Shown here: positions 2,629 through 35,966 of the stretch, one piece after another
Position numbering within the stretch: position 1 is the first letter of the stretch
Layout of the letters: each line of letters begins with the position of its first letter
NCBI RefSeq assembly: GCF_001940225.2
Contig: NZ_CP135164.1
Coordinates: forward strand, 496,001 to 560,000
Direction of reading: 5' to 3'
Source of the DNA: Roseburia sp. 499
GTDB lineage: Bacteria > Bacillota > Clostridia > Lachnospirales > Lachnospiraceae
Length of the DNA: 64,000 nucleotides
The notes under the pieces: model-generated
Seen by the model: only the letters and a program-made list of their open reading frames with translations
What the model was told of the DNA's origin: nothing
The model's database searches: none
Position numbers and translations under genes: made by a program

Positions 2629-4005
2629 ATGTTCAATGTAATTGCTGAAAATTTTTTTGTACCATTAGCATCTCCAAATAAACTTGTATATTGGGAATGT
2701 ATATGTAAGCTGTTTAGTGTTATGGATAATCAGCTTTCTTTTGGTATAGAAAGAGAAGCTCTGGTAGAGGAACTGCAATATTATTTTGAACAGAACAATG
2801 CGGCGTCTATTGTAGAAGAGGATATAGAATCAGATGACAGTAGAAGTAAGGCAAACTGGATGCTGCGACGACTGGAGTTTTACGGATGGATTGAAATAGA
2901 AACAGATAAAAGTTATATCCAAAAGGTAAATTTTAAGGAATATGCTGTTAAGGTAATAAAAACATTGACAGAGATTGAGACAGGGAAGCAGATTGAGTAT
3001 CAGGGGTATATTTATACCATATATAGTCTGTTACGCAGCAGTACAGACAATCCCGGCATTGTACTTTTGCAGATACTGGAAAATACAGATTTACTTGTTA
3101 CAGGTTTGAAGAATCTGAATTCCAGCATAAAACATTATATTGATGAGCTTACAAAGCATAAAACAGTGGCAGAAATCATGAATGCTCTTTTTAACGATTA
3201 TATTACAAATATTGTTGATAAAGCCTATCATAGACTGTTGACTTCAGATAATGTGTCAAAATTCCGTCCGGAAATTATTGAACGTCTGGAAAGTAAAAGC
3301 AGAAGCAAAGCATATGTGGAAAGAGCATGTGCGGATATTGCAGGGATACAGGAAATATCTGTAGAAGAGGCAGAAGAGAGAGTGTATCATTATATTCGCC
3401 AAATTATAGATGCATTTCAGAATATGGATGATATTTTAATGGAAATTAATCAGAAGAATACACAATACCAGAGAGCTGCAATTAATCGTGCAAAGTTTCT
3501 TCTTACAGGAAGTGAAGATGTAAGGGGGCAGTTGAAAGAACTTCTGATTGGTATAAATGAAAGAATGAATGAAGAAAGTATGGAAATGAATGGAATTTAT
3601 AGAATAGATTTTTTGGACGAACTGGTGAGAATTTACAGTACATCAGTACTGGATGAAAAATCATTCTATTCCCCAATAGAGGGAAGAAAGGAATTTCAAC
3701 CATCACAGATTGATGATGGAGTAGTGGATTTAGAACTTCGTCAAGAAAAGCTTCAAAGGATGATGGAGAAGATGCAGCGTGTATTGAATCCTGAAAAAAT
3801 CAATAATTATATAAAAAAACATATGGGAGAAAACAGGCAGATATATGCGTCAAAACTTCCCATGGAGACTACGGAGGATTTTGTAAAGGTTATTTATGTA
3901 CGTTTATATGGGCAAAGAAAAAATATGCAATATACAATAGATATACAGGATGAAATAGAGATAAATGGGTATCGTTTTAAGGATTTTAAGATAACACTGA
4001 AATAA
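2629..4005 (+). CDS. jetA: Wadjet anti-plasmid system subunit JetA (kleisin-like)
   Basis: A 458-residue, largely helical protein beginning MFNVIAENFF. It is first in a run of four genes whose order and features match Wadjet JetA-JetB-JetC-JetD. JetA is the MukF/kleisin-like subunit that bridges the SMC-like JetC dimer. Wadjet complexes extrude DNA loops and cleave small circular DNA such as plasmids. The sequence resembles the JetA family recorded as DUF5716, which I recall belonging to a type II-like branch rather than the DUF3375 type I branch. No catalytic motif is expected. A ribosome binding site (GAGAGG) precedes ATG 2629. jetB starts 13 bp after the stop. The subtype assignment is from memory; the system call rests mainly on jetC and jetD. 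Confidence 0.82.
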   Translation: MFNVIAENFFVPLASPNKLVYWECICKLFSVMDNQLSFGIEREALVEELQYYFEQNNAASIVEEDIESDDSRSKANWMLRRLEFYGWIEIETDKSYIQKVNFKEYAVKVIKTLTEIETGKQIEYQGYIYTIYSLLRSSTDNPGIVLLQILENTDLLVTGLKNLNSSIKHYIDELTKHKTVAEIMNALFNDYITNIVDKAYHRLLTSDNVSKFRPEIIERLESKSRSKAYVERACADIAGIQEISVEEAEERVYHYIRQIIDAFQNMDDILMEINQKNTQYQRAAINRAKFLLTGSEDVRGQLKELLIGINERMNEESMEMNGIYRIDFLDELVRIYSTSVLDEKSFYSPIEGRKEFQPSQIDDGVVDLELRQEKLQRMMEKMQRVLNPEKINNYIKKHMGENRQIYASKLPMETTEDFVKVIYVRLYGQRKNMQYTIDIQDEIEINGYRFKDFKITLK

Positions 4006-4018
4006 GAGAGGAAAAAAG

Positions 4019-4633
4019 ATGGAATTTTTGGAAGGAATGCTTCAACGTGATAAAGATGAATTTACAAGAATATGTAACAGGCTTCTGAGTAACTGCTTTT
4101 TATGTAAAGGCAATTCAGTGACACGTGCAGATTACTATTTTGTATTGAAATATAAAGAAAAATTTTCTGCTTATCTGTCTGTGTTGGGGTATCGTCTAGA
4201 AATCAATGAAGAGTATGGTATTGTACAGCTTACAAATCCGCAAAATTATAACCGTTATAATCTGAAATTATTTGAATCCATTTTACTGCTGATATTAAGA
4301 ATACTGTTTGATGAGAAAAAGCGGGAATTATCTGTTAGTGATGAAGTGATTATAAATATAGGAGATATTCACGACAAATTTTTAAGCCTTAAAATTCGGG
4401 AAAAAATGATTGATAAAACAACATTGCGGAACGCGCTTAGTGCTTTTCGTAGATTTCAGATTATTGAGACATTGGATAAGGATTTGAGTAAAGAGGATTC
4501 AAGAATTATCATTTTTGATTCTATATTAATGGCAGTCAGGGTAGAAGACATTCGGCAGGCATACGATAAACTTGAAAACTATAGGAAGGGAACAAAAACA
4601 GATGAAGAAGTTGACGAGAGTGAAGCTGATTAA
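4019..4633 (+). CDS. jetB: Wadjet subunit JetB (MukE-like, DUF4194/DUF6063 type)
   Basis: A 204-residue protein with predicted winged-helix-like organisation and an acidic C-terminus (TDEEVDESEAD). Position and size fit JetB, the MukE-like regulatory subunit that binds the JetA kleisin. It has no enzyme motif. The AGAGAGGAAA ribosome binding site is well placed for ATG 4019. Its 3' end overlaps the jetC start by 32 bp, typical of translationally coupled subunits of one complex. The exact Pfam family (DUF4194 or DUF6063) cannot be told by eye. Confidence 0.8.
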   Translation: MEFLEGMLQRDKDEFTRICNRLLSNCFLCKGNSVTRADYYFVLKYKEKFSAYLSVLGYRLEINEEYGIVQLTNPQNYNRYNLKLFESILLLILRILFDEKKRELSVSDEVIINIGDIHDKFLSLKIREKMIDKTTLRNALSAFRRFQIIETLDKDLSKEDSRIIIFDSILMAVRVEDIRQAYDKLENYRKGTKTDEEVDESEAD

Positions 4634-7600
4634 TTGGCATAGATTTACCAATAATACGATTGACATAGGCGATTCCACATTGATTTCGGGAGAAAATGGT
4701 GCCGGTAAATCTACACTGTTAGATGCTATCCAGTTTGTTGTTACCTGTTCTGCAAATTACTTTAATAAAGCAGCTCATGAAAATGGAAAGAGAAAGCTGA
4801 CTGGATATATACGTTGCAAGACCGGAAGGGAGAATAGGCCGTATGAGCGTATTGGTGAAATTAGTGCTCATGTTGCATTGGAATTTTATGAAGAAAAGAA
4901 GCAACGTTATTTTATTGTAGGTGCAGTCATTGATTCAGCCTCTGAAGGACAGGAAAAATGGGCACGATACTTAATGGATGGAGTACAGATTGAAGAAGAC
5001 ATGTTTTTTTCGGATAAGACACCGAAATCTATAGCCCAGTTCCGTACTGCTAATGCAAAGCACATTAAAACCTGGTGCACAACAGATAAGGATGCTAAGG
5101 TGATGATAAAAAATCGATTCGGCAGGATTGAGGATAAATTTTTCCGTCTGATACCAAAAGCAATGGCTTTCCGACCAATTGATGATATCAAAGACTTTGT
5201 ATATTCTTATGTGCTGGACGAGAAAGAGGTAAATATTGATATACTGAGAGAAAATGTGAGATCATATCAAGACTTACAACGCACATTGGAAAACGTAAAA
5301 ATAAGAATTGGAAGATTGGACAAGATTGAGCGCTACCATGAACAGGTACAGGATGGTATGGAAAAAGACAGCATGTATGAATATTTTCTTGCAAGAGCAG
5401 AAGCTGACATCATAGAGGAAGATATTTCTAAGTTGCAGCATGAGGTAAGTGCAGATACCTATCGGTTAAAGGAAAGTGATACAAAGATTATAGCTTTGGC
5501 AAAGGAGAAAAAAGAGAAGCAGGAAATACGAGACAATTTAAGAGCAGAGTTAGCACAGGATAAGGACTTTATTGCCAGAGACGAATTGAAGAAAAAAATG
5601 GAACGTCTGGAAGAAAGAAAAGCTGAACTGGAAGATGAGAAAAGACATTTACAGAAAAGTATGCGGGATGCTGCAAAGCAGGCAAGTGAACTGCTTAAGG
5701 TGACAGATGTTGATGCATGTGTGCAAAAGTATAAAGAGTATCTGGATTGTGGAGAAAACATAGAAGAAATGGCAGAATTTAAGCAGACATTGCAAGATGT
5801 AATTGCTTATAAAACAAAAATGTACGAAAAAGTTCAGATGAAAAAGGCAGAAGTAAGCATCAGCATTAATCAGGCAGATGCAGAAAGAAATGAGCTGGAG
5901 AAAACCATTGAAAGGTTGGAGAAAAAGAAGTTTTCCTATCCCGTGGATGTGGAACGTGTTATGGATGCAATTAAGGAGGAATTTGTCCGAATAGGAAGAA
6001 CACCGGAACCGAAGGTTCTGTGTGAGTGGCTTGATATCACAGATGACACATGGAGAAATGCGGTGGAAGGTTATCTGAATACACAGAGGTTTTATATTTT
6101 GGTGGAACCGGAAAATTTTGATATTGCACTAGGTACATACGACCGTCTTAGAAAAGAAAAAAAGGCATATGGTGTCGGGGTGATTAATGCGCAGAAGCTG
6201 GAAGAATATGATACCGCTCCGGAAGGTTCATTGGCCACAGTTGTGATTTCGCCCAATAAGCATGCGAAAAGGTTTATTAATATGGTGTTAGGAAAAGTCC
6301 ATATGTGTGAGCATTACAATGAACTGAAGAAATATACAACCTCAGTAACAAAGGAATGCATGAAATATCAGAATCATGTAGCAAGTGCCATAAAGCCGGC
6401 TATTTACGAAACACCTTTTATTGGAAAAAATGCAATCAAGGTTCAGTTGGAACAGGCATTGAGGAAGAAAGATACTTTGATGGAACGACTGAACAAGCTG
6501 CAGGAACAAAAAAGACAGTTGGATTATGTTATGGAACCGTTGTCTGTCAATGCAGATACGGATATTAAGTATAGAGTGGATGTATTGGCTGAAATACGGT
6601 CTGTTAAGAATGAGATAGAGAAGTGCAAAATAAATATTGCAACTTTGGAGAAGAACTCTAATATGATACAAAAGCAGATTCAACTGACTACATTGGAAGA
6701 GTTACTTAGAGAGTTAGAAGAAGAATTTGTAAAAATCAATCAAAAAATTGGCTCCATAAAGGAACGGATTCGAAAAACGAAAGAAGAGATTTCTAAAAAA
6801 CAGGAAAAGGGAGCAGAGCAAAAAGCTTTTTATATTGAATTAGGAGCAAAAGCGGGCAATGAGATTATTTCATGGAATCGTGATTATGATAAGCAGACCA
6901 CAGATAAAGCATTAGAACAGTTCCGAGATAATTTTGCACGGAGAAAAAAGGCGAATCTTACAATTGTAGAAAAGAGCCAGAGGGATATGGAAAAAGTCAT
7001 GGTGGAATATAAGACAGCCCATGATTTTGGTGCAGCACCTACCATGGAGGGGTATCCCGACTTTGCAGCAGAATATGATAAATTAAAAAATTCGGAGTTG
7101 TTGACCTATGAAGAAAAGGTTGAGTCGGCGAGAAAAGCAGCAGAAGAAGAGTTTAGAGAACAGTTTTTGTCAAAACTCCAAGAAAATATGAAAGTTGCCC
7201 AGGGCGAGTTTAAAGAACTAAATAAGGCATTGAATGACATTGTTTTCAGTAATGAAAAGTATGAGTTTATCTTTATGCCAAGTAAGCGGTATCGTCAGTA
7301 TTATGAAATGATTATGGATGATTTTAATGCAATGCAGGGAGAATCTATTTTCAGCGGTATTTTTCATGAAAACCATAAAGAAGTCATTGAGGAACTGTTT
7401 GAAAAACTTGCATTGGATAATGAGAATAATGTAAAGGTATTGGATGAGTTCACAGATTATAGAACATATATGGATTATGATATTAAAATTATTCACAGTG
7501 ATGGAAATTATTCTTTTTATTCTAAGGTTTGCGAAGAAAAGAGTGGAGGAGAAACACAGACACCATTCTATGTAACAGTGGCTGCGTCCTTTGTGCAGTT

Positions 7601-7844
7601 ATATAAGAACAATATAGGCGGAGATGCAGTGGGATTGGTGATGTTTGACGAAGCATTTAATAATATGGATGATGAGAGAATTGGTGGAGTACTTGAATTT
7701 TTACGACGTCTTCCGCTTCAGATTATTATTGCTGCACCGCCGGATAAAATACAGTATATTAGCCCTTTTGTAGAAGAAACATTGCTTGTTATGACAGATG
7801 AAAAGACAAGCTTTGCAGAGAGGTATTATAATGGTGCAATATGA
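4602..7844 (+). CDS. jetC: Wadjet SMC-like ATPase JetC
   Basis: A 1080-residue MukB/SMC-like ATPase, the loop-extruding motor of Wadjet. The N-terminal ATPase half has Walker A GENGAGKS at about 30-37. Long coiled coils rich in E, K and Q follow (roughly 220-430 and 600-870), separated by a hinge-like region around 450-590. The C-terminal half carries the ABC signature KSGGE at about 980-984 and Walker B GLVMFDEA at about 1011-1018. I chose ATG 4602 (MKKLTRVKLINW) over an upstream in-frame ATG at 4572 because AGGAAGGG lies at 4583-4590. All ATPase motifs look intact. It overlaps jetB by 32 bp and jetD by 14 bp. Confidence 0.93.
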   Translation: MKKLTRVKLINWHRFTNNTIDIGDSTLISGENGAGKSTLLDAIQFVVTCSANYFNKAAHENGKRKLTGYIRCKTGRENRPYERIGEISAHVALEFYEEKKQRYFIVGAVIDSASEGQEKWARYLMDGVQIEEDMFFSDKTPKSIAQFRTANAKHIKTWCTTDKDAKVMIKNRFGRIEDKFFRLIPKAMAFRPIDDIKDFVYSYVLDEKEVNIDILRENVRSYQDLQRTLENVKIRIGRLDKIERYHEQVQDGMEKDSMYEYFLARAEADIIEEDISKLQHEVSADTYRLKESDTKIIALAKEKKEKQEIRDNLRAELAQDKDFIARDELKKKMERLEERKAELEDEKRHLQKSMRDAAKQASELLKVTDVDACVQKYKEYLDCGENIEEMAEFKQTLQDVIAYKTKMYEKVQMKKAEVSISINQADAERNELEKTIERLEKKKFSYPVDVERVMDAIKEEFVRIGRTPEPKVLCEWLDITDDTWRNAVEGYLNTQRFYILVEPENFDIALGTYDRLRKEKKAYGVGVINAQKLEEYDTAPEGSLATVVISPNKHAKRFINMVLGKVHMCEHYNELKKYTTSVTKECMKYQNHVASAIKPAIYETPFIGKNAIKVQLEQALRKKDTLMERLNKLQEQKRQLDYVMEPLSVNADTDIKYRVDVLAEIRSVKNEIEKCKINIATLEKNSNMIQKQIQLTTLEELLRELEEEFVKINQKIGSIKERIRKTKEEISKKQEKGAEQKAFYIELGAKAGNEIISWNRDYDKQTTDKALEQFRDNFARRKKANLTIVEKSQRDMEKVMVEYKTAHDFGAAPTMEGYPDFAAEYDKLKNSELLTYEEKVESARKAAEEEFREQFLSKLQENMKVAQGEFKELNKALNDIVFSNEKYEFIFMPSKRYRQYYEMIMDDFNAMQGESIFSGIFHENHKEVIEELFEKLALDNENNVKVLDEFTDYRTYMDYDIKIIHSDGNYSFYSKVCEEKSGGETQTPFYVTVAASFVQLYKNNIGGDAVGLVMFDEAFNNMDDERIGGVLEFLRRLPLQIIIAAPPDKIQYISPFVEETLLVMTDEKTSFAERYYNGAI

Positions 7845-9060
7845 AAAGAGAGTACTCAATGCTCTTTTGGATTCTTATGAGAACAGCCTTTTATTTACAG
7901 GAGAAAATAAGGTGAAAATCAGCATAGATTTTCCATTTACAAAAAAGAAGATGCCAGAGTATTTTGATGAAAGTTCCTATGAATATGAAAAGATACATAT
8001 TTCCATGAAAGAACTTGAAAAAAAGGGGTTTCTGGAAATTATTTGGAAAAAGGGCAAAGAAAATCATATCATATCAAAGGTTATCTTGAAAATAGAAAAT
8101 TTAGAGCAGATTTATGCATATACAAAGAGAGCTTCTAAATCAGACTTGATTGTGAAAAATCTTAAGCTACTTAGAGAATATCAGAAAAAGTATGATACTC
8201 CGGTATGCTTGGAACTGAGTGAATATTTGATAGAACGAATTGAAAAAAATCAGTCTGTAAAAGAATATATCGACCTTGCAAAGGGTAAGGAAACAGAAAT
8301 GTTGTTTAAAGGAATTTTTGCAGTAGAGGCGAATAAAAGACAGTATTATATTCGGGAATTTTCTATAGAAGTATTTCATGATACGAAGGTTTTTGAACAA
8401 ATTATTGGAAAAGTTGTCAAGGCTCTTCGGAATTTTAGTGACGGATTTGAAGAAAAAGAAACATCGGAAGTATTGGCGGAATATGGGATATATCATACTC
8501 CAAACTATGTTTATTTCAAAGGAGATATCAGATTGATGGTTTGCCAGGAAGAGTACAACATTGGCTCACTGAAACAGGGAATTGGAATTTCCGGTGAGGA
8601 TTTGTCGGCAGTCAGGTTTCTGGATATGGCAGCAGTTCATCAGGTGATTACAATAGAAAATCTTACCACGTTCTTTCGCTGGAAGGAACCGGAAAGTCTG
8701 ATTATTTATTTGGGAGGTTATCACAATGCGGTTCGACGCGAACTTTTGAAATCAGTGTATGAGGCACTGCCTGAGGCAAAATATTATCATTTTGGTGATA
8801 TAGACGCGGGAGGATTTGAAATATATCGTGATTTATGCGAAAAAACGAGAATACCTTTTAACATGTATAGAATGAATCTGGCGATTTTACAGAAATATCA
8901 AAAATATGGTAAACCACTGAAAGAAAATGACAGGGTGCGTTTGAATAAAATGTTAAATGGTCCACTAGGAAAAATGGAAGGATTTTGCGAAATGGTACAA
9001 TATATGCTAGAGAACAATGTGAAGCTGGAGCAGGAATGTATCTTGCAGAAGGATACCTAA
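7831..9060 (+). CDS. jetD: Wadjet nuclease subunit JetD (Toprim-like)
   Basis: A 409-residue protein and last gene of the Wadjet operon. The C-terminal half is a topoisomerase VI/Toprim-like domain (DUF2220 type): a metal-binding Glu in VITIEN (about 276) and the GDIDAGG motif at about 322-328 carry the acidic residues needed for DNA cleavage. JetD cuts the DNA once JetABC has fully extruded a small circle. ATG 7831 (MVQYEKRVL) is preferred to ATG 7798 because AGAGAGG lies 7 bases before it. The start overlaps the jetC end by 14 bp. The catalytic motifs look intact, so the whole system should be functional. Confidence 0.9.
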   Translation: MVQYEKRVLNALLDSYENSLLFTGENKVKISIDFPFTKKKMPEYFDESSYEYEKIHISMKELEKKGFLEIIWKKGKENHIISKVILKIENLEQIYAYTKRASKSDLIVKNLKLLREYQKKYDTPVCLELSEYLIERIEKNQSVKEYIDLAKGKETEMLFKGIFAVEANKRQYYIREFSIEVFHDTKVFEQIIGKVVKALRNFSDGFEEKETSEVLAEYGIYHTPNYVYFKGDIRLMVCQEEYNIGSLKQGIGISGEDLSAVRFLDMAAVHQVITIENLTTFFRWKEPESLIIYLGGYHNAVRRELLKSVYEALPEAKYYHFGDIDAGGFEIYRDLCEKTRIPFNMYRMNLAILQKYQKYGKPLKENDRVRLNKMLNGPLGKMEGFCEMVQYMLENNVKLEQECILQKDT

Positions 9061-9076
9061 GCGGAGGGAGCAATAG

Positions 9077-9202
9077 CATGAAAACCAAAAGCGCATAAGG
9101 ACTCTGGTAACCTTGACAGCCATCACAGAAAAAGCTAATATTGAATCAGCAAAGATAGAAACACAGTTCCGGTTGGTAGTCCGGACGTATTCAATGTTTT
9201 GA
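9077..9202 (+). pseudogene. Short unexplained coding remnant after jetD
   Basis: Between stops, one frame reads TLVTLTAITEKANIESAKIE and then TQFRLVVRTYSMF before a stop. It looks protein-like and has no start codon or ribosome binding site. It resembles the tail of a mobile-element gene, but I cannot name the family. It lies at the right edge of the defence island, opposite the relics at its left edge. Confidence 0.3.
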
Positions 9203-9215
9203 ATATCAGTAGCCC

Positions 9216-9271
9216 TCCCTCCTTGGGTCGTCCATTCTTTGTGTATGATACAAACAGAAATTAAGGAGGGA
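9216..9271 (+). promoter_or_regulatory. yjdF leader that can sequester the ribosome binding site
   Basis: TCCCTCCTT (9216-9224) is exactly complementary to AAGGAGGGA (9263-9271), the ribosome binding site of the yjdF-like gene, and two G-U pairs extend the helix. The 34-base loop contains a smaller hairpin, TTTGT...ACAAA. B. subtilis yjdF is preceded by a riboswitch for azaaromatic compounds; I cannot confirm that consensus here, but the leader is clearly able to hide the start. Confidence 0.5.
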
Positions 9272-9276
9272 TTGTC

Positions 9277-9693
9277 ATGGACAAAGAATCGGGAACATTA
9301 ACAGTATTTTTTCAGGAGCCATTTTGGATAGGCGTTTTTGAACGGATAACGGAAGAAGGCTTATCCGTATGTAAGGTTACCTTTGGGGCAGAACCCAAAG
9401 ACTATGAGGTGGCTGAGTTTATCTTAAAAAATTACTACCGGTTACGATTTAGTCCGGCTGTGGCAACTGAGGTAAAAGAAACAAAGCGGAATCCGAAAAG
9501 AGTACACCGACAGGTGCGCAAGCAAATGCAGGAAAACGGTATAGGTACAAAATCGCAGCAAGCTTTGAAATTACAGCAGGAGCAGATGAAAACGGAACGC
9601 AGGTCCGTAAGCCGGGAACAACGGGAAGCGGAGAAACTGCGGAAGTTTGAACTGAAACAGCAAAAAAAGAAAGAGAAGCATCGGGGCAGGTAA
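9277..9693 (+). CDS. yjdF: YjdF family protein (DUF2992)
   Basis: A 138-residue protein. The N-terminal 65 residues form a compact domain (TLTVFFQEPFWIGVFER), and the C-terminal half is a highly charged K/R/Q/E helix. This is the YjdF/DUF2992 pattern; the molecular function is unknown. In other Firmicutes yjdF genes sit under a riboswitch responding to nitrogen-containing aromatics. Here the leader can pair with the ribosome binding site AAGGAGGG six bases before ATG 9277. The last codons and the stop are inside an 11-bp GC-rich hairpin (9681-9705) that separates it from the convergent isochorismatase gene. Confidence 0.85.
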   Translation: MDKESGTLTVFFQEPFWIGVFERITEEGLSVCKVTFGAEPKDYEVAEFILKNYYRLRFSPAVATEVKETKRNPKRVHRQVRKQMQENGIGTKSQQALKLQQEQMKTERRSVSREQREAEKLRKFELKQQKKKEKHRGR

Positions 9694-9705
9694 TACCTGC
9701 CCCGA
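9681..9705. terminator. GC-rich hairpin between yjdF and the isochorismatase gene
   Basis: TCGGGGCAGGT (9681-9691) pairs perfectly with ACCTGCCCCGA (9695-9705) around AAT. It overlaps the yjdF stop codon and lies between convergent genes. The T-tract is poor, so termination may be partial. Confidence 0.5.
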
Positions 9706-9716
9706 CTTCGTATAGA

Positions 9717-10253
9717 TTATAAGAAATTTTCACATGTCATTACATTTGCAAATCTTGGATGCAAAGAAGCCATATATACATGTTGAACGACTTTAGCGGA
9801 AAGTTTTTCACCGTTTTGCTCTAAGTCCTTGGTTGCACAGGCGTCTGAAATAAGTGTAATATTATAGCCCAGTTCTTTTGCAGCACGGACAGTTGTGTCA
9901 ATACACATATGTGTCATCATCCCACATATCACCAATTCTGTGATAGAATCCTTTTCCAATTCTGCCTGTAAAGATGTCTCGAAAAAGCTATTTGGAGAAT
10001 GTTTTATAATAACCTTTTCAGAAGCGAGGGGCGTAATAGAATTATGAATATTTACACCGTCAGTATCAGGAACAAAGAAGGAAGCAGTTTTATCTGCAAT
10101 ATGCTGAACATAGTAAACAGGAAGGTCGTTTTTTCTAAAATAAGATAGTAATGCTTCTATGTTTTCTAATGCCGGTTCCGGTTGGTAGAGTTCGCATTTC
10201 CCATTTGGAAAATAATCATTTTGAACATCAATAATTAATAATGCTTTTTTCAT
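9717..10253 (-). CDS. Isochorismatase-family cysteine hydrolase
   Basis: A 178-residue soluble hydrolase of the isochorismatase/nicotinamidase fold. The catalytic triad is readable: Asp9 in LLIIDVQNDY, Lys84 in VIIKHSPNSF, and Cys117 in GMMTHMCIDTT, with the usual cis-peptide region just before the Cys. The substrate cannot be told from sequence; nicotinamide, isochorismate or other amides are possible. It lies 77 bp downstream of an HxlR regulator gene on the same strand. HxlR proteins often respond to reactive electrophiles and control nearby redox or detoxification enzymes, so a detoxification role is a reasonable guess. Confidence 0.9.
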   Translation of the reverse strand: MKKALLIIDVQNDYFPNGKCELYQPEPALENIEALLSYFRKNDLPVYYVQHIADKTASFFVPDTDGVNIHNSITPLASEKVIIKHSPNSFFETSLQAELEKDSITELVICGMMTHMCIDTTVRAAKELGYNITLISDACATKDLEQNGEKLSAKVVQHVYMASLHPRFANVMTCENFL

Positions 10254-25091: not shown

Positions 25092-25176
25092 GCTTGCTCT
25101 AATTCCTTCTTTTTTATCCCCATTATAAAACTTTTGTGTTAAAATAGCGATAGATATTTTGAAAAGGGGGAAGAAC

Positions 25177-25911
25177 ATGAAAGAAAAGCTATATACCATT
25201 CCCATTCAGGATGCATTTTCGAAAGACTGTGAGTGTCCGGTCTGTGAAATGTATCGTAAACTTGAGGAAAATGCCATCAACTATAACATTGGTCCCGGAG
25301 CCAGTTATATGGAGGAGGACATACGGGAGCAAAGCGACAAAGAGGGATTTTGCCAAAAACATTTAAAACTGTTATATGAATATAATAATAAGCTGGGACT
25401 TGCTATGATGTTGAAGACTCATATGGATCGCACCATAAAGGAACTGGAAAAGTTCTCGAAGACTTCTCTGCCTCAGCCGAATTCTATGTTTAAGAAAAAG
25501 GAAGTGCAGTCTCATCCGATTACAGATTATATTGCAAAGTCAGAAGAGGAATGTTTTGTGTGCGGTTATATCAATCAGACCTTTGAAAGCTATATTATGA
25601 CCATATTTTATTTGTACGAGAGAGAGGAAGAATTTAGAGAACAGTTTGCTTCCTCTAAGGGATTTTGTATCAATCACTATAAGATTCTGTTTGAACAGGC
25701 GCCAAGATATTTAAATAAGAAGTATCTGGAAACATTTTTAAACACATTAAATCAGATATTTATGGAGAACTTTAAGCGTGTAAGAGATGATTTGGAATGG
25801 TTTATCCGAAAGAATGATTACCGTTATAAGGAGGAGCCATGGAAGAACGGAAGAGACGCATTGCCACGAGCATTGACGAAAGTGGGGAGTATCTGGAACG
25901 GAGAAGAATAG
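25177..25911 (+). CDS. DUF6062 family protein
   Basis: A 244-residue soluble protein with two paired-Cys motifs: CECPVC near the N-terminus (about 18-23) and CFVCGYI near the middle (about 125-131). Each is followed by a GFCxxHxK-like block (GFCQKHLKLL and GFCINHYKIL). The duplicated Cys/His pattern suggests two similar metal-binding halves. This resembles the clostridial DUF6062 family, of unknown function. AAGGGGG fits ATG 25177 better than the in-frame TTG at 25159. Confidence 0.75.
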   Translation: MKEKLYTIPIQDAFSKDCECPVCEMYRKLEENAINYNIGPGASYMEEDIREQSDKEGFCQKHLKLLYEYNNKLGLAMMLKTHMDRTIKELEKFSKTSLPQPNSMFKKKEVQSHPITDYIAKSEEECFVCGYINQTFESYIMTIFYLYEREEEFREQFASSKGFCINHYKILFEQAPRYLNKKYLETFLNTLNQIFMENFKRVRDDLEWFIRKNDYRYKEEPWKNGRDALPRALTKVGSIWNGEE

Positions 25912-28222: not shown

Positions 28223-28545
28223 AGTAACTTTCCTCCTAATTCTAAAGAATTATTTTTACTCTAAATATAATTTACCACGTTTCAAATTTTTTTCAACGGA
28301 TAGAGTGTACAAAAAGAAGAACAGAAGCCCATTTTTTTGTTTTTTTTTGAAAACAGTTCTTCTTATTGAGAAAAATAAGCGAATATAATTTTTTGTTTTC
28401 ATAAAGGGTGGAATATGGTATTATAGTAATAGTTTTTCTACATGCTGTAAAAATAAATCACATGACGTAGAGATGAAAACTACATGGTGCGGTTGACAAT
28501 ACCGCTATGCGATGATAGAATAGAGTGATTGAAAAAGAGGATGCT
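28223..28545. other. Divergent intergenic region of pta and the acyltransferase operon
   Basis: There is no gene in these 323 bp. Contents are the pta leader with an AATTC/GAATT hairpin near its ribosome binding site, an AT-rich stretch with a 9-bp inverted repeat AAGAAGAAC/GTTCTTCTT (28314-28322/28356-28364), and the acyltransferase promoter at 28493. Confidence 0.6.
28493..28521 (+). promoter_or_regulatory. Promoter of the acyltransferase/GT8 operon
   Basis: TTGACA (28493-28498) and TAGAAT (28516-28521) with 17-base spacing, about 25 bp before ATG 28546. The leader would be very short. Confidence 0.75.
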
Positions 28546-29346
28546 ATGGAAAAGGAACAAAAAGTAATTTATTATAGTGATGAATTGAATGATGAGTTTT
28601 CCGGTGATAACATTGTAACGAAGCGAATTGACGGGGAATATCGGTATACCAGAAATAGAGTTCTGGATAAGATTTGTCATATATTTTTTTACCGTATTAT
28701 AGCAATACCACTGGCATTTTTGTATATGAAGATTCATTTTCGTCATAAAATAGTTAATAGGAAAGTATTAAAGCAGATGCGTGGAAAGAGATGTTACATA
28801 TATGGAAACCACACACATTTTTTAGCAGATGCGTTAATTCCTACAATGGTTAGTTTTCCTAAGAAAATTTCAGTTATTGTGCATCCGAATAATGTATCCA
28901 TGCCCGTGTTGGGAAGAATTACACCTTATTTGGGAGCGTTGCCTCTTCCGGATGAGAAGCAGGCATGTAAGCACTTTGTAGAAGCAATAGGTCAGATTAT
29001 GAAAAAAAATGGATGGATTATGATATATCCGGAGGCACATATTTGGCCTTTTTATACAGATATAAGGCCGTTCAAGGACACCTCTTTCCGATATCCGGTA
29101 CAGTATCAGACACCTGTTTTTAGTTTGACAAACACTTATCAGAAGAGACGTTTTTCAAAGAATCCTCGGATTGTTACATATATTGATGGACCTTTTTATC
29201 CGGACCGGACAAAAGTATCAAAGGAACAAAAATTACAACTGAGGAATCAAGTGTATGAAAGTATGAAGGAAAGAGCGAAGCAAAATAATGTGGAGCTTGT
29301 CAGATATATAAAGGTAGAAAAGAAAAAGGAAGAAAAAGATGATTAA
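28546..29346 (+). CDS. PlsC-like acyltransferase
   Basis: A 266-residue membrane-associated protein with one hydrophobic segment at about 45-65. Its acyltransferase block 1 is YIYGNHTHFLAD, in which His and Asp are separated by five residues instead of the textbook four. The later blocks IMIYPEAHIWPF and the VFSLTNTYQ strand fit the 1-acyl-glycerol-phosphate acyltransferase fold. It probably moves an acyl chain to a lipid or glycolipid acceptor at the inner membrane face. ATG 28546 has AAAGAGG five bases before it. The gene overlaps the GT8 gene by 8 bp. Confidence 0.82.
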   Translation: MEKEQKVIYYSDELNDEFSGDNIVTKRIDGEYRYTRNRVLDKICHIFFYRIIAIPLAFLYMKIHFRHKIVNRKVLKQMRGKRCYIYGNHTHFLADALIPTMVSFPKKISVIVHPNNVSMPVLGRITPYLGALPLPDEKQACKHFVEAIGQIMKKNGWIMIYPEAHIWPFYTDIRPFKDTSFRYPVQYQTPVFSLTNTYQKRRFSKNPRIVTYIDGPFYPDRTKVSKEQKLQLRNQVYESMKERAKQNNVELVRYIKVEKKKEEKDD

Positions 29347-30184
29347 TATACTTTTTTCAGGAAATGCAGGAGTATTTGATGGAATATTGACGTGCATGTT
29401 GTCTATATTTAAAAGGACGGACACCAAAGAGCCGTTTCGTTTCTTTGTATATACCATGGATGTGACTAGAATCAAGCCGGAGTATCAGGCAATTAGCGAC
29501 AGGCAGATAGCATTTTTAAATGAAATAGCACAAGAATATAATTTGGAAAATAAGGTAATTAAGGTAGATGTGAAAGAGTTGTATGAGAGGGAATTTGGTG
29601 GGTGTCCTAACGAGCAAGCCTATTGTTCTCCTTATACGTTGCTCCGTCTGTTTGCGGATATAGTGGAAGGAATGCCGGATAAGCTGTTATATCTGGATGT
29701 AGATATTTTGTTTAACAGAGATATCACGCTTTTATATGAAATAGATGTTTCGGGATATGAGTATGCAGCAGCAAGAGACCATTATGGGAAATATTTACTC
29801 AATCCTAATTATATCAATGCGGGAGTGTTACTCTTTAATATGGAAAAAATAAGAGAAACCGGATTGCTGGAAAAGTCAAGGAAGCTGATTAAAGAGAAAA
29901 AACTGACTTTTGCAGATCAGAGTGCAGTTTACCGGAGTACCACAAAAAAGAAAATGCTGCCTCAGAGGTTTAACGATCAGAAATTTTTACATAAACACAC
30001 CGTGGTAAGGCATTTTTCAAAAAGACTATTTTATCTGCCTTATCCTCATACTGCAAATGTCAAACAGTGGAAGGTAAGTGATATTCATAGGATATTCCGG
30101 TACTATGTGTTTGATGATATTTTATTTGAGTATATTTATTTGAAGAAAAAATACGAAAAGGAATGGATGGGAGATTACAAATGA
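29339..30184 (+). CDS. Glycosyltransferase family 8 protein
   Basis: A 281-residue GT8 (galactosyl/glucosyltransferase-type) enzyme. The metal- and sugar-nucleotide-binding DxD motif is in LLYLDVDILF at about 115-124, the family's NAGVLLFNM is at about 160-168, and the C-terminal HFSKR is where the last metal-binding His is expected. It uses a UDP-sugar; the acceptor is likely a lipid, because the gene lies between an acyltransferase gene and a GT8-acyltransferase fusion. It overlaps both neighbours (8 bp and 4 bp), so the three are one translational unit. Confidence 0.88.
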   Translation: MINILFSGNAGVFDGILTCMLSIFKRTDTKEPFRFFVYTMDVTRIKPEYQAISDRQIAFLNEIAQEYNLENKVIKVDVKELYEREFGGCPNEQAYCSPYTLLRLFADIVEGMPDKLLYLDVDILFNRDITLLYEIDVSGYEYAAARDHYGKYLLNPNYINAGVLLFNMEKIRETGLLEKSRKLIKEKKLTFADQSAVYRSTTKKKMLPQRFNDQKFLHKHTVVRHFSKRLFYLPYPHTANVKQWKVSDIHRIFRYYVFDDILFEYIYLKKKYEKEWMGDYK

Positions 30185-31950
30185 ACAGTAATAAAATAAT
30201 ACCAATATTTTTTGCATGTGATGATAATTTTGTAAAATATACGATGGTATCCATGCGTTCTATCATGGATAATGCATCTAGAGATTACAAGTATGTGGTA
30301 CACATTTTGAATACAAATATTAGTGATGAAATGAAAAAAGCTGTTATGGATATGACAGAGGAAAATTTTGAAATTCGTTTTGAGGATGTGACAGGTTATT
30401 TGACGTCTATTAGTGACAAACTGCCTCTTCGAGATTATTATTCCAAGACAACGTATTTCAGAATGTTTATTGCAGAGATGTTTCCGGAATATGAGAAGGC
30501 AATCTATATTGATAGCGATACCATAGTGAATGGGGATATTTCAGAACTGTATCTTCATGACTTGAAGGATAACTATGTAGGAGCAGCAAATGAACAGGTA
30601 ATGATTCAGGAAAACGTATATGGAGAGTATGTGGAAAAAGTGCTGGGAATTGACAGATACCATTATTTCAATGCGGGACTTCTGTTGATTAACTGTGAAC
30701 AGTTCCGAAAAAATCATGTGTTAGACCAGTTTGTTGACTTGCTTCATACCTATAATTTTGTAGTTACGCAGGATGAGGATTATCTGAATCTTATCTGTAA
30801 AGATAGGGTGCTGTGGTTAGAACAACCATGGAACACAGAGGTGTTTGGTGAAATTGCTTATCCGGAAAGTGAATTTAAGATGATTCATTATATTATGGTT
30901 TCTAAGCCATGGCACTATGAAGGAGCAAAGTATTCCGAACATTTTTGGCGCTATGCGAAAGAAACAGCTGTTTATGATGAAATTAAAGAAGTGCTTGCTA
31001 ATTATACAGATGAACAGCGAGAAGAGGATGCAGCTTCCTGTGACCGGTTGCTTCAGATGGCAAAAGATGAAATTGCAAAGGAAAACAATTATCTGAATTT
31101 GTTAAAGAGAGGACAGTTAAAGTCAAAGGAACGTTTGGAGGTATTGGATAAAATCGCAAAGTTGGAGCGAGAAGGAAGATTTGACGAGGATGTGGAGGAA
31201 GATCCACCAACCCGTGAACTTCAGCCGGAGGAAATTGATTATCTGCGAAAAAAGGTGAAAAGTAAGATAAAGACAAGACTTACTTATAAAGTTGCAAGAA
31301 AGTTTATGAATCATTTGCTTGATAGTAAACAGTTAATTATCAAGGAAATAAAAGGGATTGAGAATTTCTGTAACTTAGAAAGTGGAGCAATTATTACCTG
31401 TAATCATTTTAATGCATATGACAGTTTTGCAATGCAGATTGCGTATGAGAGTTCCGGGCATAAAAAGAGAAAGTTTTATCGTGTAATTCGAGAAGGAAAT
31501 TATACGAACTTTCCGGGCTTCTATGGAATGCTTATGAGAAATTGTAATACATTTCCGTTGAGTTCTAATTTCAAAACCATGGAGAAATTTATGAAATCCA
31601 TGGATATTGTATTACAGAAAGGAAATTTTGTATTGATTTATCCGGAGCAGAGTATGTGGTGGAATTACAGAAAGCCGAAGCCATTGAAAAAGGGTGCGTA
31701 TACCTTTGCAGCAAGAAACAATGTACCGGTACTACCATGTTTTATTACCATGGAGGACAGTGATATTCTTGGAGAAGATGGTTTTTATGTACAAGAATAT
31801 ACAATCCATATCGGAGAGCCAATTTATCCTGATAAAAATAAATCAAGGGCTGAAAATGTAGAAGAAATGCGCCAGAAAAACGCAGACCTCTGGAAAAAGA
31901 TATATGAGGAAAATTATAAAGAAGAATTGAGATACAGTTGTAATGCATAA
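30181..31950 (+). CDS. Two-domain fusion: GT8 glycosyltransferase plus PlsC-like acyltransferase
   Basis: A 589-residue bifunctional protein. Residues 1 to about 265 are a second GT8 domain: AIYIDSDT holds Asp111 and Asp113, then FNAGLLLIN, and a C-terminal HYIMVSKPWH. A charged helical linker runs from about 275 to 370. Residues about 385-560 are an acyltransferase domain with the canonical HX4D (NHFNAYD, His409-Asp414), FPLSSN as block 2, and IYPEQSMWW (about 486-494) as block 3. ATG 30181 overlaps the preceding stop as ATGA. Fusing sugar transfer and acylation on one chain suggests stepwise building of an acylated glycolipid. I do not know a characterised example of this fusion. Confidence 0.85.
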   Translation: MNSNKIIPIFFACDDNFVKYTMVSMRSIMDNASRDYKYVVHILNTNISDEMKKAVMDMTEENFEIRFEDVTGYLTSISDKLPLRDYYSKTTYFRMFIAEMFPEYEKAIYIDSDTIVNGDISELYLHDLKDNYVGAANEQVMIQENVYGEYVEKVLGIDRYHYFNAGLLLINCEQFRKNHVLDQFVDLLHTYNFVVTQDEDYLNLICKDRVLWLEQPWNTEVFGEIAYPESEFKMIHYIMVSKPWHYEGAKYSEHFWRYAKETAVYDEIKEVLANYTDEQREEDAASCDRLLQMAKDEIAKENNYLNLLKRGQLKSKERLEVLDKIAKLEREGRFDEDVEEDPPTRELQPEEIDYLRKKVKSKIKTRLTYKVARKFMNHLLDSKQLIIKEIKGIENFCNLESGAIITCNHFNAYDSFAMQIAYESSGHKKRKFYRVIREGNYTNFPGFYGMLMRNCNTFPLSSNFKTMEKFMKSMDIVLQKGNFVLIYPEQSMWWNYRKPKPLKKGAYTFAARNNVPVLPCFITMEDSDILGEDGFYVQEYTIHIGEPIYPDKNKSRAENVEEMRQKNADLWKKIYEENYKEELRYSCNA

Positions 31951-31964
31951 CTAAATTCCGCACT

Positions 31965-32016
31965 GTGATGCCCCCAGAAGTTAGATTTTAGAATTTGACT
32001 TTTGGGGGCATTTCAC
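31965..32016 (+). terminator. Terminator hairpin after the fusion gene
   Basis: TGCCCCCAGAAGT (31969-31981) pairs with ACTTTTGGGGGCA (31998-32010) with one G-U, and GTGA/TCAC extends the base of the stem. The tract afterwards is only moderately T-rich. Confidence 0.65.
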
Positions 32017-32162: not shown

Positions 32163-35100
32163 ATGTCAAGATTCAGTGTGAAGAAGCCCTATACCGTAAT
32201 TGTAGGGATTGTGCTGGTAATTATACTTGGTATTGTATCATTGAGTAAAATGAGTACAGATTTATTGCCAAGTATGAATATGCCCTATGCAATTGTAATC
32301 ACAAGTTATGCCGGAGCCAGTCCGGAACAGGTGGAACGTGTGGTAACGGAGCCGGTAGAAAGTGCTATGGCAAGTACTTCGAATATTAAAAATATTAGTT
32401 CACGTTCTGCGAATAACATGTCCATGGTTATTCTGGAGTTTGAGCAGACCGCAAATATGGATTCCGTTACCGTAGAGATGCGGGAAAGTCTGGATCAGAT
32501 TAAGGGATATTGGCCGGACGAAGTGGGAAATCCTATTATTATGAAGATTAATCCGGACATGATGCCGATTATGATTGCGGCAGTAGATGTGGAAGGAATG
32601 GATACCCTTGCGTTAAGCGACTATACAAATGATGAGTTGATTGCAGAACTGGAAAGCGTTGAGGGAGTTGCTTCGGTGTCTGCTACCGGTACCATTGAAG
32701 AGTCGATTCAAGTTACCTTAAAGCAAGATAAAATAGATGCGATAAATGAAAAGATTGTGGCATCTTTGGATGAAAAATTTTCTGATGCAGAAAGCCAGAT
32801 GGATTCTGCAAAAAATGAGATAGAAAGTGGAAAAGATAAGCTCTCCAGTGGTCAGGATGAAATGGCAGGGCAGATCAGTGATGCTCAAAATCAGTTAAAT
32901 GACAAGAAACTGGAGTTGATCCAAACAGAGGCAGATTTAAATGTTAAGTTAGCAGAATTACAGCAGACCAAAAGTAGCACAGAAGCTGGAATTGCTGCGT
33001 TGCAAGAAGCACAGCAACAGGTGCAGACTCTGATTGGTACGAAGAGTCAGTTGACTGCCGCAATTACAGGTATGCAGCAGGCAGGGCAGGATACTACAGA
33101 ACTAGAAGCAAACCTGGCTCAACTAGAAGCAGGTCTGGTAGCAGTTAAGGGGCAGATGGCGGCACAGGAAGGAAGCACGTTATCTGTAAATGCTTCCGAT
33201 GAAGAACTGACAGCATATATTGCATCTGCTCTTACACAGGCACAACAGGGACTGATACAGATTAACGGTGGAATTGTTACCATACAGACAGCCCTTGAAA
33301 ATATTGCAGCCGGAAAAACAACCATTAATGAAACACTTGCCACATTGAATGAAAGCCAGATTGCAGGTGTGATTGAAATGGGAAGTGCTTCTGCACAGTT
33401 AGCAGGTGGAGAACAGAAGTTAGAAGAATCCCAGAAGGAATTTGAGAATCAAAAAGAAGAGGCATATGATTCTGCAGATTTAAATAATATTCTTACCATG
33501 GATACGTTAAGCGGAATACTGACTGCACAGAACTTCTCTATGCCGGCAGGTTATATTAACGAAAATGGTGTTCAGTACATGGTTCGCGTAGGAGATGCTG
33601 TTGACAGTATAGATGCATTAAAGGACATGGTATTGATGGACCTTGGCATGGATGGTGTGGATACCATACATTTATCTGATGTAGCTGAGATTGAGGTAGT
33701 AGATGATTCTACAGAGTCTTATGCAAAGGTAGATGGGAATGCGGGAGTTATGCTTTCTATCGAAAAACAGACCGGATATTCTACCGGAGATGTAACAGAC
33801 CGTGTGTATGATAAGATTGAATCTATGCAGAAAAGTAACAAGGACCTGCATGTATCTGTTTTGATGGATCAGGGAATTTACATTGATATGATTGTAGATT
33901 CTGTATTAAATAATATGATTTATGGAGCAATATTGGCAGTTATTATTCTGATGTTGTTCTTAAAGGATATTAAGCCAACATTGGTAATTGCTGTATCCAT
34001 TCCGATTTCTGTTATTTTTGCAATCGTGTTGATGTATTTCAGCGGAGTTACTCTGAATATGATTTCCTTATCCGGTCTGGCATTGGGAATTGGTATGCTG
34101 GTGGACAACTCTATAGTAGTAATTGAAAATATTTATCGTATGAGAAGTGAAGGAGTACCGGCAAGAAAAGCGGCAGTCGAGGGAGCAAAGCAGGTAAGCG
34201 GTGCGATAGCAGCTTCTACATTGACTACCATATGTGTATTCGCACCAATTGTATTTACAGAAGGAATCACAAGACAGTTATTTGTTGATATGGGACTGAC
34301 CATTGCCTATGCATTGTTGGCAAGTTTGATTGTAGCCTTGACCTTTGTACCAATGATGGGCTCTAAAATATTGAAAAAGACAAAGGATATCAAGCATCCG
34401 TGGTTTGACAAATTCCAGGATGTATATGGAAAAGTACTAGGAAAATTGTTATATGTAAAACCATTGGTACTGCTGGTAATGGTAGCTTTATTGGTAGTAA
34501 GTGCGTATGCTTCTGTTTCTAAGGGAACAGCTTTCTTCCCGGATATGGAAAGTACACAGATGACAGTAACCATAACGCCACCGGATGATTATGAGTTTGA
34601 AGAAATCTGTGAATTGGCAGATAAAGTAACTGAGAAGATTCAAGAAATTGAAGATGTGGAATCCATAGGAGCCATGGCAGGCGGCGGAAACATGATATCA
34701 ATGGGTGACAGCAGTGATGATCAGGTGACTTTATACCTGATTTTGAAGGAAGATAAAAAACACAGCAATGAGGAAATTGCAGCAATGGTTACGGAAAAGA
34801 CCAAGGATATGGATGGAGAAATTGCTGCCAATGCATCCTCCATGGATATGACATCTATGATGGGAGAAGGACTTTCTATTCAGATAAAGGGAAGGGATTT
34901 GGATACTTTACAGAGTATTGCAAAGGATGTAGCTGAAATTGTAGAAAAGGTAGAAGGAACGGCAGAGGTATCAGATGGTCTGGAAGAAACTACACCGGAG
35001 TTTCGAGTTACCGTTGATAAGGAAAAAGCCGCAAAATATGGAATGACAGTAGCACAGATTTACCAGCTGGTGTATGCACAAATGGAAAATACAACAGCAG

Positions 35101-35966
35101 ATGCTACCATTTCTACAGATATTAAGGATTATGATGTATATCTGGAATCAGTAGAACAGAGTACCGCAAGTATTGACAGTATTAAAAATCTGACCTTTAC
35201 TTATACAGATAAGGAAACCGGTGATGAAACGGAAATTCCGCTCGGTGATGTGGCAGAATTTGAGGAAACCGAAGGCTTAAGTACCATTAGCCGTGATGGA
35301 CAGCAGCGTTATATTAATGTTACAGCAGCTATTGCAGATGGTTATAATGTAGGTTTAGTGGGAAGTGATGTAAAAGAAGCTATAGAAAAATATGAGTGCC
35401 CAGAGGGATATTCCATGAAAATGGAAGGAGAAGACGAGATGATTAATGAGTCAATGGAACAGTTGATGCTAATGCTGATACTTGCCGTTGCGTTTATCTA
35501 TCTCATAATGGTAGCACAGTTCCAGTCATTAAAGGCGCCATTTATTATCCTGTTTACGATTCCACTGGCATTGACCGGAGGATTCTTGGCATTGTTCGTT
35601 ACCAATAATGAAATTAGTATCATTGCCATGATTGGATTTATTATGCTGGCAGGTATTATTGTAAATAATGGTATTGTGATGGTAGACTATATTAATCAGC
35701 TTCGGCGAGCAGGAATGGAGAAAAAGGAAGCAATCATTGCAGCAGGAAAAGCTCGTATCCGTCCTATTTTGATGACAGCAATGACTACTATTTTAGCAAT
35801 GTCCACTACTGCATTCGGAAGTGATATGGGTTCAGATATGTCCAGACCTATGGCAATCGTAACTATCGGTGGTATGATATATGGAACACTGATGACATTG
35901 GTAGTAGTGCCATGTATTTATGACTTATTCTATAGTAATAAGAGTATGGTAGAGGAAGAGATATAA
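32163..35966 (+). CDS. RND-family (HAE1/AcrB-like, SwrC-type) efflux permease
   Basis: A 1267-residue proton-driven exporter. It has the classic duplicated layout: one N-terminal helix (about 10-30), a periplasmic-type loop, a six-helix bundle (about 585-740), a second helix (about 765-785), a second loop, and a second bundle (about 1100-1260). The RND motif GLALGIGMLVDNSIVVIENI lies in helix 4 of the first bundle, holding the proton-relay Asp. It is longer than AcrB (about 1050) because a coiled-coil insertion (about 200-430, rich in Q, A, E) sits in the first outer loop. Such insertions occur in Gram-positive RND proteins and may replace a separate adaptor. The stop overlaps the TetR start by one base (TAATG). 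Confidence 0.92.
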   Translation: MSRFSVKKPYTVIVGIVLVIILGIVSLSKMSTDLLPSMNMPYAIVITSYAGASPEQVERVVTEPVESAMASTSNIKNISSRSANNMSMVILEFEQTANMDSVTVEMRESLDQIKGYWPDEVGNPIIMKINPDMMPIMIAAVDVEGMDTLALSDYTNDELIAELESVEGVASVSATGTIEESIQVTLKQDKIDAINEKIVASLDEKFSDAESQMDSAKNEIESGKDKLSSGQDEMAGQISDAQNQLNDKKLELIQTEADLNVKLAELQQTKSSTEAGIAALQEAQQQVQTLIGTKSQLTAAITGMQQAGQDTTELEANLAQLEAGLVAVKGQMAAQEGSTLSVNASDEELTAYIASALTQAQQGLIQINGGIVTIQTALENIAAGKTTINETLATLNESQIAGVIEMGSASAQLAGGEQKLEESQKEFENQKEEAYDSADLNNILTMDTLSGILTAQNFSMPAGYINENGVQYMVRVGDAVDSIDALKDMVLMDLGMDGVDTIHLSDVAEIEVVDDSTESYAKVDGNAGVMLSIEKQTGYSTGDVTDRVYDKIESMQKSNKDLHVSVLMDQGIYIDMIVDSVLNNMIYGAILAVIILMLFLKDIKPTLVIAVSIPISVIFAIVLMYFSGVTLNMISLSGLALGIGMLVDNSIVVIENIYRMRSEGVPARKAAVEGAKQVSGAIAASTLTTICVFAPIVFTEGITRQLFVDMGLTIAYALLASLIVALTFVPMMGSKILKKTKDIKHPWFDKFQDVYGKVLGKLLYVKPLVLLVMVALLVVSAYASVSKGTAFFPDMESTQMTVTITPPDDYEFEEICELADKVTEKIQEIEDVESIGAMAGGGNMISMGDSSDDQVTLYLILKEDKKHSNEEIAAMVTEKTKDMDGEIAANASSMDMTSMMGEGLSIQIKGRDLDTLQSIAKDVAEIVEKVEGTAEVSDGLEETTPEFRVTVDKEKAAKYGMTVAQIYQLVYAQMENTTADATISTDIKDYDVYLESVEQSTASIDSIKNLTFTYTDKETGDETEIPLGDVAEFEETEGLSTISRDGQQRYINVTAAIADGYNVGLVGSDVKEAIEKYECPEGYSMKMEGEDEMINESMEQLMLMLILAVAFIYLIMVAQFQSLKAPFIILFTIPLALTGGFLALFVTNNEISIIAMIGFIMLAGIIVNNGIVMVDYINQLRRAGMEKKEAIIAAGKARIRPILMTAMTTILAMSTTAFGSDMGSDMSRPMAIVTIGGMIYGTLMTLVVVPCIYDLFYSNKSMVEEEI

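Follow-up and report, generated by a model that had tools for sequence, protein, structure and literature searches.

A conserved cassette of GT8 glycosyltransferases and PlsC-like acyltransferases in Clostridia that may build an acylated glycolipid

Which product would call for two glycosyltransferase and two acyltransferase domains encoded side by side, with one pair of them joined in a single protein? The question is raised by three overlapping genes, here called A, B and C, at positions 28546-31950 of a 64,000-nucleotide stretch of the genome of Roseburia sp. 499 (NCBI RefSeq assembly GCF_001940225.2, contig NZ_CP135164.1, positions 496,001 to 560,000 of the forward strand), the whole of which we call the window. 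A first-pass annotation, made from the DNA letters, had proposed a pathway that adds two sugars and two acyl chains to a lipid carrier. We consider it probable, at roughly 0.6, that the genes form a self-contained operon in which two glycosyltransferase-acyltransferase (GT-AT) modules build a multiply acylated di-glycosyl membrane lipid. A, B and C were found together by tblastn in 75 of 80 loci, these being the best 80 of 555 confirmed relatives of C from named genomes, a sample that leans to close relatives. Such keeping together of four domains is what one would expect if a single product were glycosylated twice and acylated twice. It speaks for that part of the earlier proposal, and the lipid-type neighbours described below point to a membrane lipid; a lipid carrier would be one possible acceptor.

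No description of the GT8-LPLAT architecture or operon was found by title or abstract among the matches listed from the open-access literature, with subscription journals mostly outside that search, and the annotation had likewise known of no described product. Acylated glycolipids are known, and so, independently of them, are LPLAT fusions. As far as we found, their combination and its breadth have not been described.

Anatomy of the cassette

All three genes lie on the forward strand, and their coordinates and reading frames proved correct on re-checking. Gene A (28546..29346) codes for a stand-alone LPLAT/PlsC-like acyltransferase of 266 amino acids (AT1) with an HX5D motif, gene B (29339..30184) for a GT8 glycosyltransferase of 281 amino acids (GT8a), and gene C (30181..31950) for a protein of 589 amino acids in which a second GT8 domain is fused to a second acyltransferase domain (GT8b::AT2), a fusion also present in the 79 complete relatives that were extracted. 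A and B overlap by 8 nucleotides, ATGATTAA, and B and C by 4, ATGA. The four domains had been called intact, and each of them indeed exceeds its Pfam cut-off and carries the catalytic motif claimed for it. The match of A to PF01553 is weak (28.1 bits, cut-off 23), B scores 59.5 bits against PF01501 (cut-off 24.3), and C is above both cut-offs with 149.7 bits for PF01501 and 49.9 bits for PF01553. Profile and DXD metal motif together place B and C in the GT8 family, and the profile places A and C in the LPLAT/PlsC superfamily. The genome of the window has two GT8 matches only, both in the cassette, and four PF01553 matches, two of them in the cassette.

Membership of these families does not extend to their best-known enzymes. 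Against the PlsC model TIGR00530, A reaches 18.1 and C 34.5 bits, both below the cut-off of 102.95, and against the lipopolysaccharide alpha-1,3-galactosyltransferase model PRK15171, B reaches 26.2 and C 84.2 bits, below the cut-off of 461. Judged by these models, neither of the two namesake enzymes is among A, B and C. In sequence comparison with the PDB, GT8b was closest to LgtC and WbbM and B matched the same set more weakly, while the profile of A gave no match there even at an E value of 1.

Within C, the GT8b domain takes up residues 8-247 (30202..30921) and is followed by a linker of residues 248-389 (30922..31347), conserved around the stretch DEDVExDPP; the pattern DEDVE.DPP occurs in 60 of the 79 C proteins. 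The AT2 domain then covers residues 390-522 (31348..31746) and contains HX4D and YPEQSMWWNYRKPKP. The metal motif reads DVD in B and DSD in C of the window. Among relatives, LYLD.D is present in all 75 B proteins and the DXD motif in all 79 C proteins (74 by the pattern Y[IL]D.DT, the other five with YMDSDT or YVDSDT).

The two acyltransferases had been reported to differ in their catalytic motif, and this difference holds both in the window and in relatives. The HX5D motif of A (28810..28830, H89 to D95) reads NHTHFLAD, and its histidine and aspartate are invariant in 47 aligned rows; the HX4D motif of C reads NHFNAYD. NHT.{4}D is found in 74 of 75 A proteins and NHT.{4}E in the remaining one (L085), with HX4D in none of the 75, whereas among the 79 C proteins 77 have NHF.{3}D and two have NHF.{3}E. 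With the motif so constant among relatives, the idea that HX5D marks a degenerate AT1 can be ruled out.

A second feature bears on what these acyltransferases may act upon. The PEGxR pattern is absent from all 79 C proteins and occurs in one of the 75 A proteins, there at residue 133 and away from the motif site. At that site A has [YF]PEAH[IV]W in 75 of 75 and C has YPEQ[SA][ML]WWNY.KPKP in 77 of 79, compared with FPEGTR in the canonical PlsC of the same genome, whose HX4D motif reads NHQSYFD. We take the arginine of PEGxR to be Arg159 of PlsC. According to one report, Arg159 holds the phosphate of lysophosphatidate, and SalA, whose product is a phosphate-free aminolipid, has valine there (PMC8319176). 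Because this arginine is missing from A and C, their motifs suggest an acceptor without that phosphate.

This is where a different order of events has to be weighed, in which the acyltransferases come first and acylate a glycerol backbone, as a private route to a diacyl lipid or a lysolipid, to which two capping sugars are then added by the GT8 enzymes, no sugar being acylated. A and C are both PF01553 proteins, a family best known for glycerol acylation, and to this extent the scheme is natural. However, the genome already possesses a canonical PlsC, and neither A nor AT2 has PEGxR, so that we regard it as unlikely.

The multiply acylated glycolipid that we favour would be the work of two similar units. 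Searched against the genome of the window, the A profile scored 44.8 bits with C and 16.5 and 2.3 bits with the other two PF01553 proteins, and in profile comparison A aligned to AT2 over nearly all of its length with 97% probability. On these alignments A and AT2 look like one subfamily, and the operon is most readily understood as a pair of related GT-AT modules, of which one is fused and the other is not.

Conservation across Clostridia and a probable core module

Among the five loci of the main sample in which A, B and C were not found together, four (L067, L069, L078 and L097) have C alone, and the fifth (L107) ends at a contig edge, A and B being on another contig of that genome. In a sample of the family, 25 of 250 genomes matched C at 1e-20, with several of the matches being GT8-only, and in a sample of the class 17 of 393 matched at 1e-45; the genome of the window is counted in both. 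A search for the architecture across Lachnospiraceae was what the annotation had asked for. G176, the other species searched in the genus of the window, has no match to C, B or A. The system also extends past the family, to the family groups f15, f48, f53 and others.

The ends of A and B lie within 20 nucleotides of each other in 72 of 75 loci and those of B and C in 69 of 74, counting L044, where B and C are naturally fused in one frame of 875 amino acids (7161-9785) with two GT8 domains and one acyltransferase domain. Fused C proteins are spread over no fewer than four family groups (f1, f15, f48 and f53). Split forms are found in f8, f43, f59 and some genomes of f1, and once in f53 through a stop codon. 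Where C is split, the genes for GT8b and AT2 are neighbours in most of the genomes read and often stand by A and B, sometimes in changed order, and at least three changes between fused and split states are required on a tree of 60 C proteins. In one split relative, L031, the linker stretch opens the AT2 gene (open reading frame 9297-9746). The AT2 gene of L031 (9297-10214) is itself broken by an in-frame stop, with the neighbouring A, B and GT8b genes open. In L041 a GT2 protein (3141-4361) stands between B and AT2, where GT8b would be, and is possibly its replacement.

A sequencing error joining two genes, which the annotation had named as one way in which its reading could fail, and a chance joining of frames are both ruled out as the origin of the fusion, because it recurs in dozens of independent assemblies and because C exists as two adjacent genes elsewhere in Clostridia. 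C is also strongly conserved on both sides of the linker, which counts against chance joining. The second way it had named, relatives lacking one of the catalytic domains, does not apply to the fusion itself, but some relatives are without A and B.

These relatives point to which part of the cassette is basic. With profiles of A and B we searched seven whole genomes whose locus contains only C. In six of them (the genomes of L067, L069, L078 and L097, plus G495 and G553) neither A nor B was detected anywhere; apart from C, the profiles matched nothing but a weak GT8 stretch in G634. G356, with a genome of 1.1 Mb, is the seventh and keeps A, B and C dispersed. An eighth genome, G189, which was searched for A, has C and no A. 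Most of these C-only genomes are metagenome-assembled genomes or drafts, so that the absence of A and B from them is uncertain. Because six of seven lack A and B, C looks like the core and perhaps also the first module, A and B being an optional extension, and C can probably act alone. This is at odds with the former view that the fused protein carries out the last two steps, as six genomes keep C without A or B.

The same facts bear on another explanation, that a surface protein or polysaccharide is the target of the GT8 enzymes and that the acyltransferases serve in phospholipid remodelling, the two being linked by the operon only. The solved GT8 relatives of B and C include LgtC, WbbM and 5gvv, whose substrates are lipooligosaccharide, O-antigen and adhesin glycans, respectively. 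Set against this are the fusion of GT8b to AT2, the further fusion of B in L044, the joint absence of A and B from six genomes and the lack of PEGxR at its site in both A and AT2. No adhesin, capsule or O-antigen gene was seen among the 18 recurrent neighbours named by Pfam, which cover part of the clusters. That last point is qualified by a Big_2-domain protein that lies just 3' of C in four loci closely related to that of the window (L042 10468-11628; L044 9899-10915; L047 10447-11469; L050 6340-7350; Pfam was run on the L044 copy). Taken together, we find such a division of labour quite improbable.

Proposed product and genomic neighbours

GT8 enzymes use nucleotide-sugar donors with retaining chemistry, and LPLAT enzymes use acyl-ACP (acyl carrier protein) or acyl-CoA donors. 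For the membrane lipid proposed here, the GT8 domain of C would draw on a nucleotide sugar to attach a hexose in alpha linkage to an acceptor in the membrane, with diacylglycerol or a simple glycolipid as the likeliest candidates, and the fused AT2 would acylate the product, probably at a sugar hydroxyl, before its release from C. B would contribute another hexose and A another acyl chain, giving a plan comparable to that of di-acylated phosphatidylinositol dimannoside. The product may be flipped, to be used as a glycolipid at the surface or to anchor glycerol-phosphate groups. Acylation of sugars is known among LPLAT enzymes, PatA and VexE being examples (PMC9597891).

The neighbourhoods of the cassette give some hints in the same direction. 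A gene for CrtO (PF18927), noticed by reading neighbours and not by clustering, is directly beside C in L136, L142 and L175, and in L096 it lies 1.9 kb downstream of the cassette with three open reading frames between. CrtO acylates a glycosylated lipid in Staphylococcus (PMC12924280), and we use its presence only as a hint of sugar acylation. It also tells against the glycerol-first order discussed above, since in the one pathway for which its role is known to us CrtO acylates a sugar. CrtO was found in six of seven C-only genomes (that of G637 being a fragment below the cut-off, and G189 the exception). The corresponding counts are 7 of 56 for genomes that have both C and A, and 1 of 34 for those where C was not matched at 1e-45. 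Its association with the loss of A and B has a Fisher p of 1.6e-4 if the genomes are taken as independent, and of 0.0019 without the G637 fragment. The genome of the window gave no CrtO match in a search whose positive controls were detected.

A membrane protein of PF00884, an LtaS-like sulfatase, is adjacent in 13 of the 80 loci, one member having been named by Pfam. It suggests a special case of the acylated glycolipid, in which the cassette product would be the glycolipid that anchors a lipoteichoic-acid-like polymer, with the extra acyl chains strengthening the anchoring. The sulfatase lies within about 150 nucleotides of the cassette match, downstream in 11 loci and upstream in 2. It shares the strand of the cassette in 7 loci and is on the other strand in 6; since position and strand vary, the adjacency has outlasted rearrangement. 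L104 is a further such locus, cut by a contig end. The one member compared, from L087, matched first the uncharacterised structure 3lxq (6.4e-10) and then the lipoteichoic acid synthase 4uoo (1.1e-7). The genome of the window has one PF00884 match and no PF06925 match in a search that detected the Bacillus subtilis control. However, its PF00884 protein is 1.4 Mb from the cassette, a sulfatase accompanies only 11 of the 64 loci having 2 kb on both sides, and all 13 loci are in one part of the tree, so that the adjacency may be one event. An anchor role of this kind is therefore rather doubtful.

A gene of PF03706, which we take to be a flippase-like family, directly precedes B in L132 and L135 and is absent from that place in L133 and L134. 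CrtO, the sulfatase and PF03706 are hints of a membrane lipid product. No dedicated transporter or regulator of general occurrence was seen near the cassette in BLAST neighbour clusters whose representatives, 18 proteins, were named by Pfam. The recurrence of ABC ATPases, DegV, MatE, P-type ATPases and uracil-DNA glycosylase was taken as a matter of family size or kinship, and a cluster of proteins of about 290 amino acids upstream of B turned out to be only an antisense frame of A. Three distant loci have a histidine kinase and a response regulator near the cassette (L028 11837-13548, L135 11340-13611 and L054 11104-13200); the kinase-like gene of L028 overlaps the start of A.

Several observations weigh against the proposed acylated glycolipid. 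The fourth PF01553 protein of the genome (NHQGKYD and FPEGDY) is likewise without the PEGxR arginine, and the loss is thus not special to A and C. As to the kinship of A and AT2, genomes of f15 have a further acyltransferase that scores 69-77 bits with the A profile, compared with 56-60 for C, and G360 has a second A-like copy. G176, of the same genus, is without a match to any of the three genes. Two of the loci with CrtO beside C (L142 and L175) belong to one genus, CrtO occurs also in 5 of 28 near relatives holding A, B and C, and a tree-aware pair test of CrtO against loss of A and B, with 3-4 pairs, shows nothing. CrtO as a replacement for lost A and B is therefore favoured by the raw counts and not upheld by the tree-aware test, and we keep it as a lead. 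The confinement of the sulfatase loci to one part of the tree is to be added here, as is the presence of PF03706 beside the cassette in only 2 of 4 f53 genomes read. Many neighbourhoods among those listed contain nothing recognised as envelope synthesis, and beyond the neighbours named above those that were read have no theme in common.

A broader idea, which we put forward tentatively and with the odds against it, is that many gut Clostridia make a lipid-A-like glycolipid, namely a sugar-acylated disaccharide assembled at the inner leaflet by this one conserved operon, in which the same polypeptide would first glycosylate and then acylate, and used as a surface anchor. If true, this would add an undescribed class to the envelope lipids of Gram-positive bacteria, one likely seen by pattern receptors of the host. 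The cassette is present in several family groups of Clostridia, many of them from rumen and animal guts, and in Roseburia faecis, a human gut commensal. Its parts are kept even in the 1.1 Mb genome of G356. If an acylated glycolipid is made, the cassette would supply the genes behind a so far unknown surface lipid that common commensals carry, and the fusion with its split relatives would be a clear example of one protein coupling two steps of lipid synthesis.

As to expression, a promoter-like site upstream of A on the forward strand (28493..28521; TTGACA-17-TAGAAT, with TG before the -10) has 11 of 12 matches and is the best in the stretch. The scan as a whole gave 23 sites compared with 17.1 expected, little above chance, and the site is only suggestive. 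On the 3' side of C, a forward-strand hairpin at 31965..32016 (-32.8 kcal/mol, z = -7.42) was not equalled in stability by any of 200 shuffles; its T tract is weak, and it is a probable end of the transcript. Because of the promoter-like site before A and the stable hairpin after C, the three genes are probably read as one short transcript. The first arm of the hairpin occurs once in the window, allowing up to 3 mismatches. The cassette is flanked by a divergent phosphotransacetylase-like gene, named from its translation, and by an AcrB-type pump. The pump, of the RND family (32163-35963; PF00873, 698 bits), has its best Pfam stretch starting only at residue 436, with a long helical, coiled-coil-like insert read by eye at residues ~200-430, and is followed by a gene read as TetR-like. 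Elsewhere in the window, 25159-25908 codes for a DUF6062 protein (PF19538, E 6.5e-96), a family of unknown function.

Comparison with known systems

LgtC and WbbM, which make Gram-negative surface glycans, are the best solved-structure matches of GT8b, and the match spans only the GT8 part of C. For the fusion of a sugar-acylating LPLAT domain to another domain there is a likeness in VexE of the Vi antigen (PMC9597891); VexE differs from C in that its partner is a set of TPR repeats, that it acts on UDP-GlcNAc and that the protein contains no glycosyltransferase. SalA of marine roseobacters, an LPLAT member that attests HX5D within the family, has it in place of HX4D as A does, is also without the arginine of PlsC, and was modelled with a geometry like that of PlsC (PMC8319176). 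Unlike A, it shares the motif FP[E/S]G[T/V] and makes an aminolipid.

Stepwise synthesis of mono- and then di-hexosyl diradylglycerol is known in a clostridium from UgtA, UgtB and HexSDF of Clostridioides difficile; in contrast to the cassette, the scheme as given in the abstract has no acyltransferase (PMC11898633). In staphyloxanthin synthesis the glycosyltransferase CrtQ is followed by the acyltransferase CrtO on a lipid (PMC12924280), like the order proposed for the cassette. CrtO, however, belongs to another Pfam family (PF18927) than A and AT2 (PF01553).

The final phosphatidylinositol mannoside carries two sugars and two extra acyl chains, and its mannosyltransferases are of GT4. That pathway uses separate proteins and an inositol acceptor, with GT4 enzymes where the cassette has GT8, and we liken the two by plan and not by a shared LPLAT branch. 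Its acyltransferase, PatA of Mycobacterium, has the LPLAT fold and transfers an acyl chain to a hexose while the membrane glycolipid is being assembled (PMC9597891), as we propose for the cassette.

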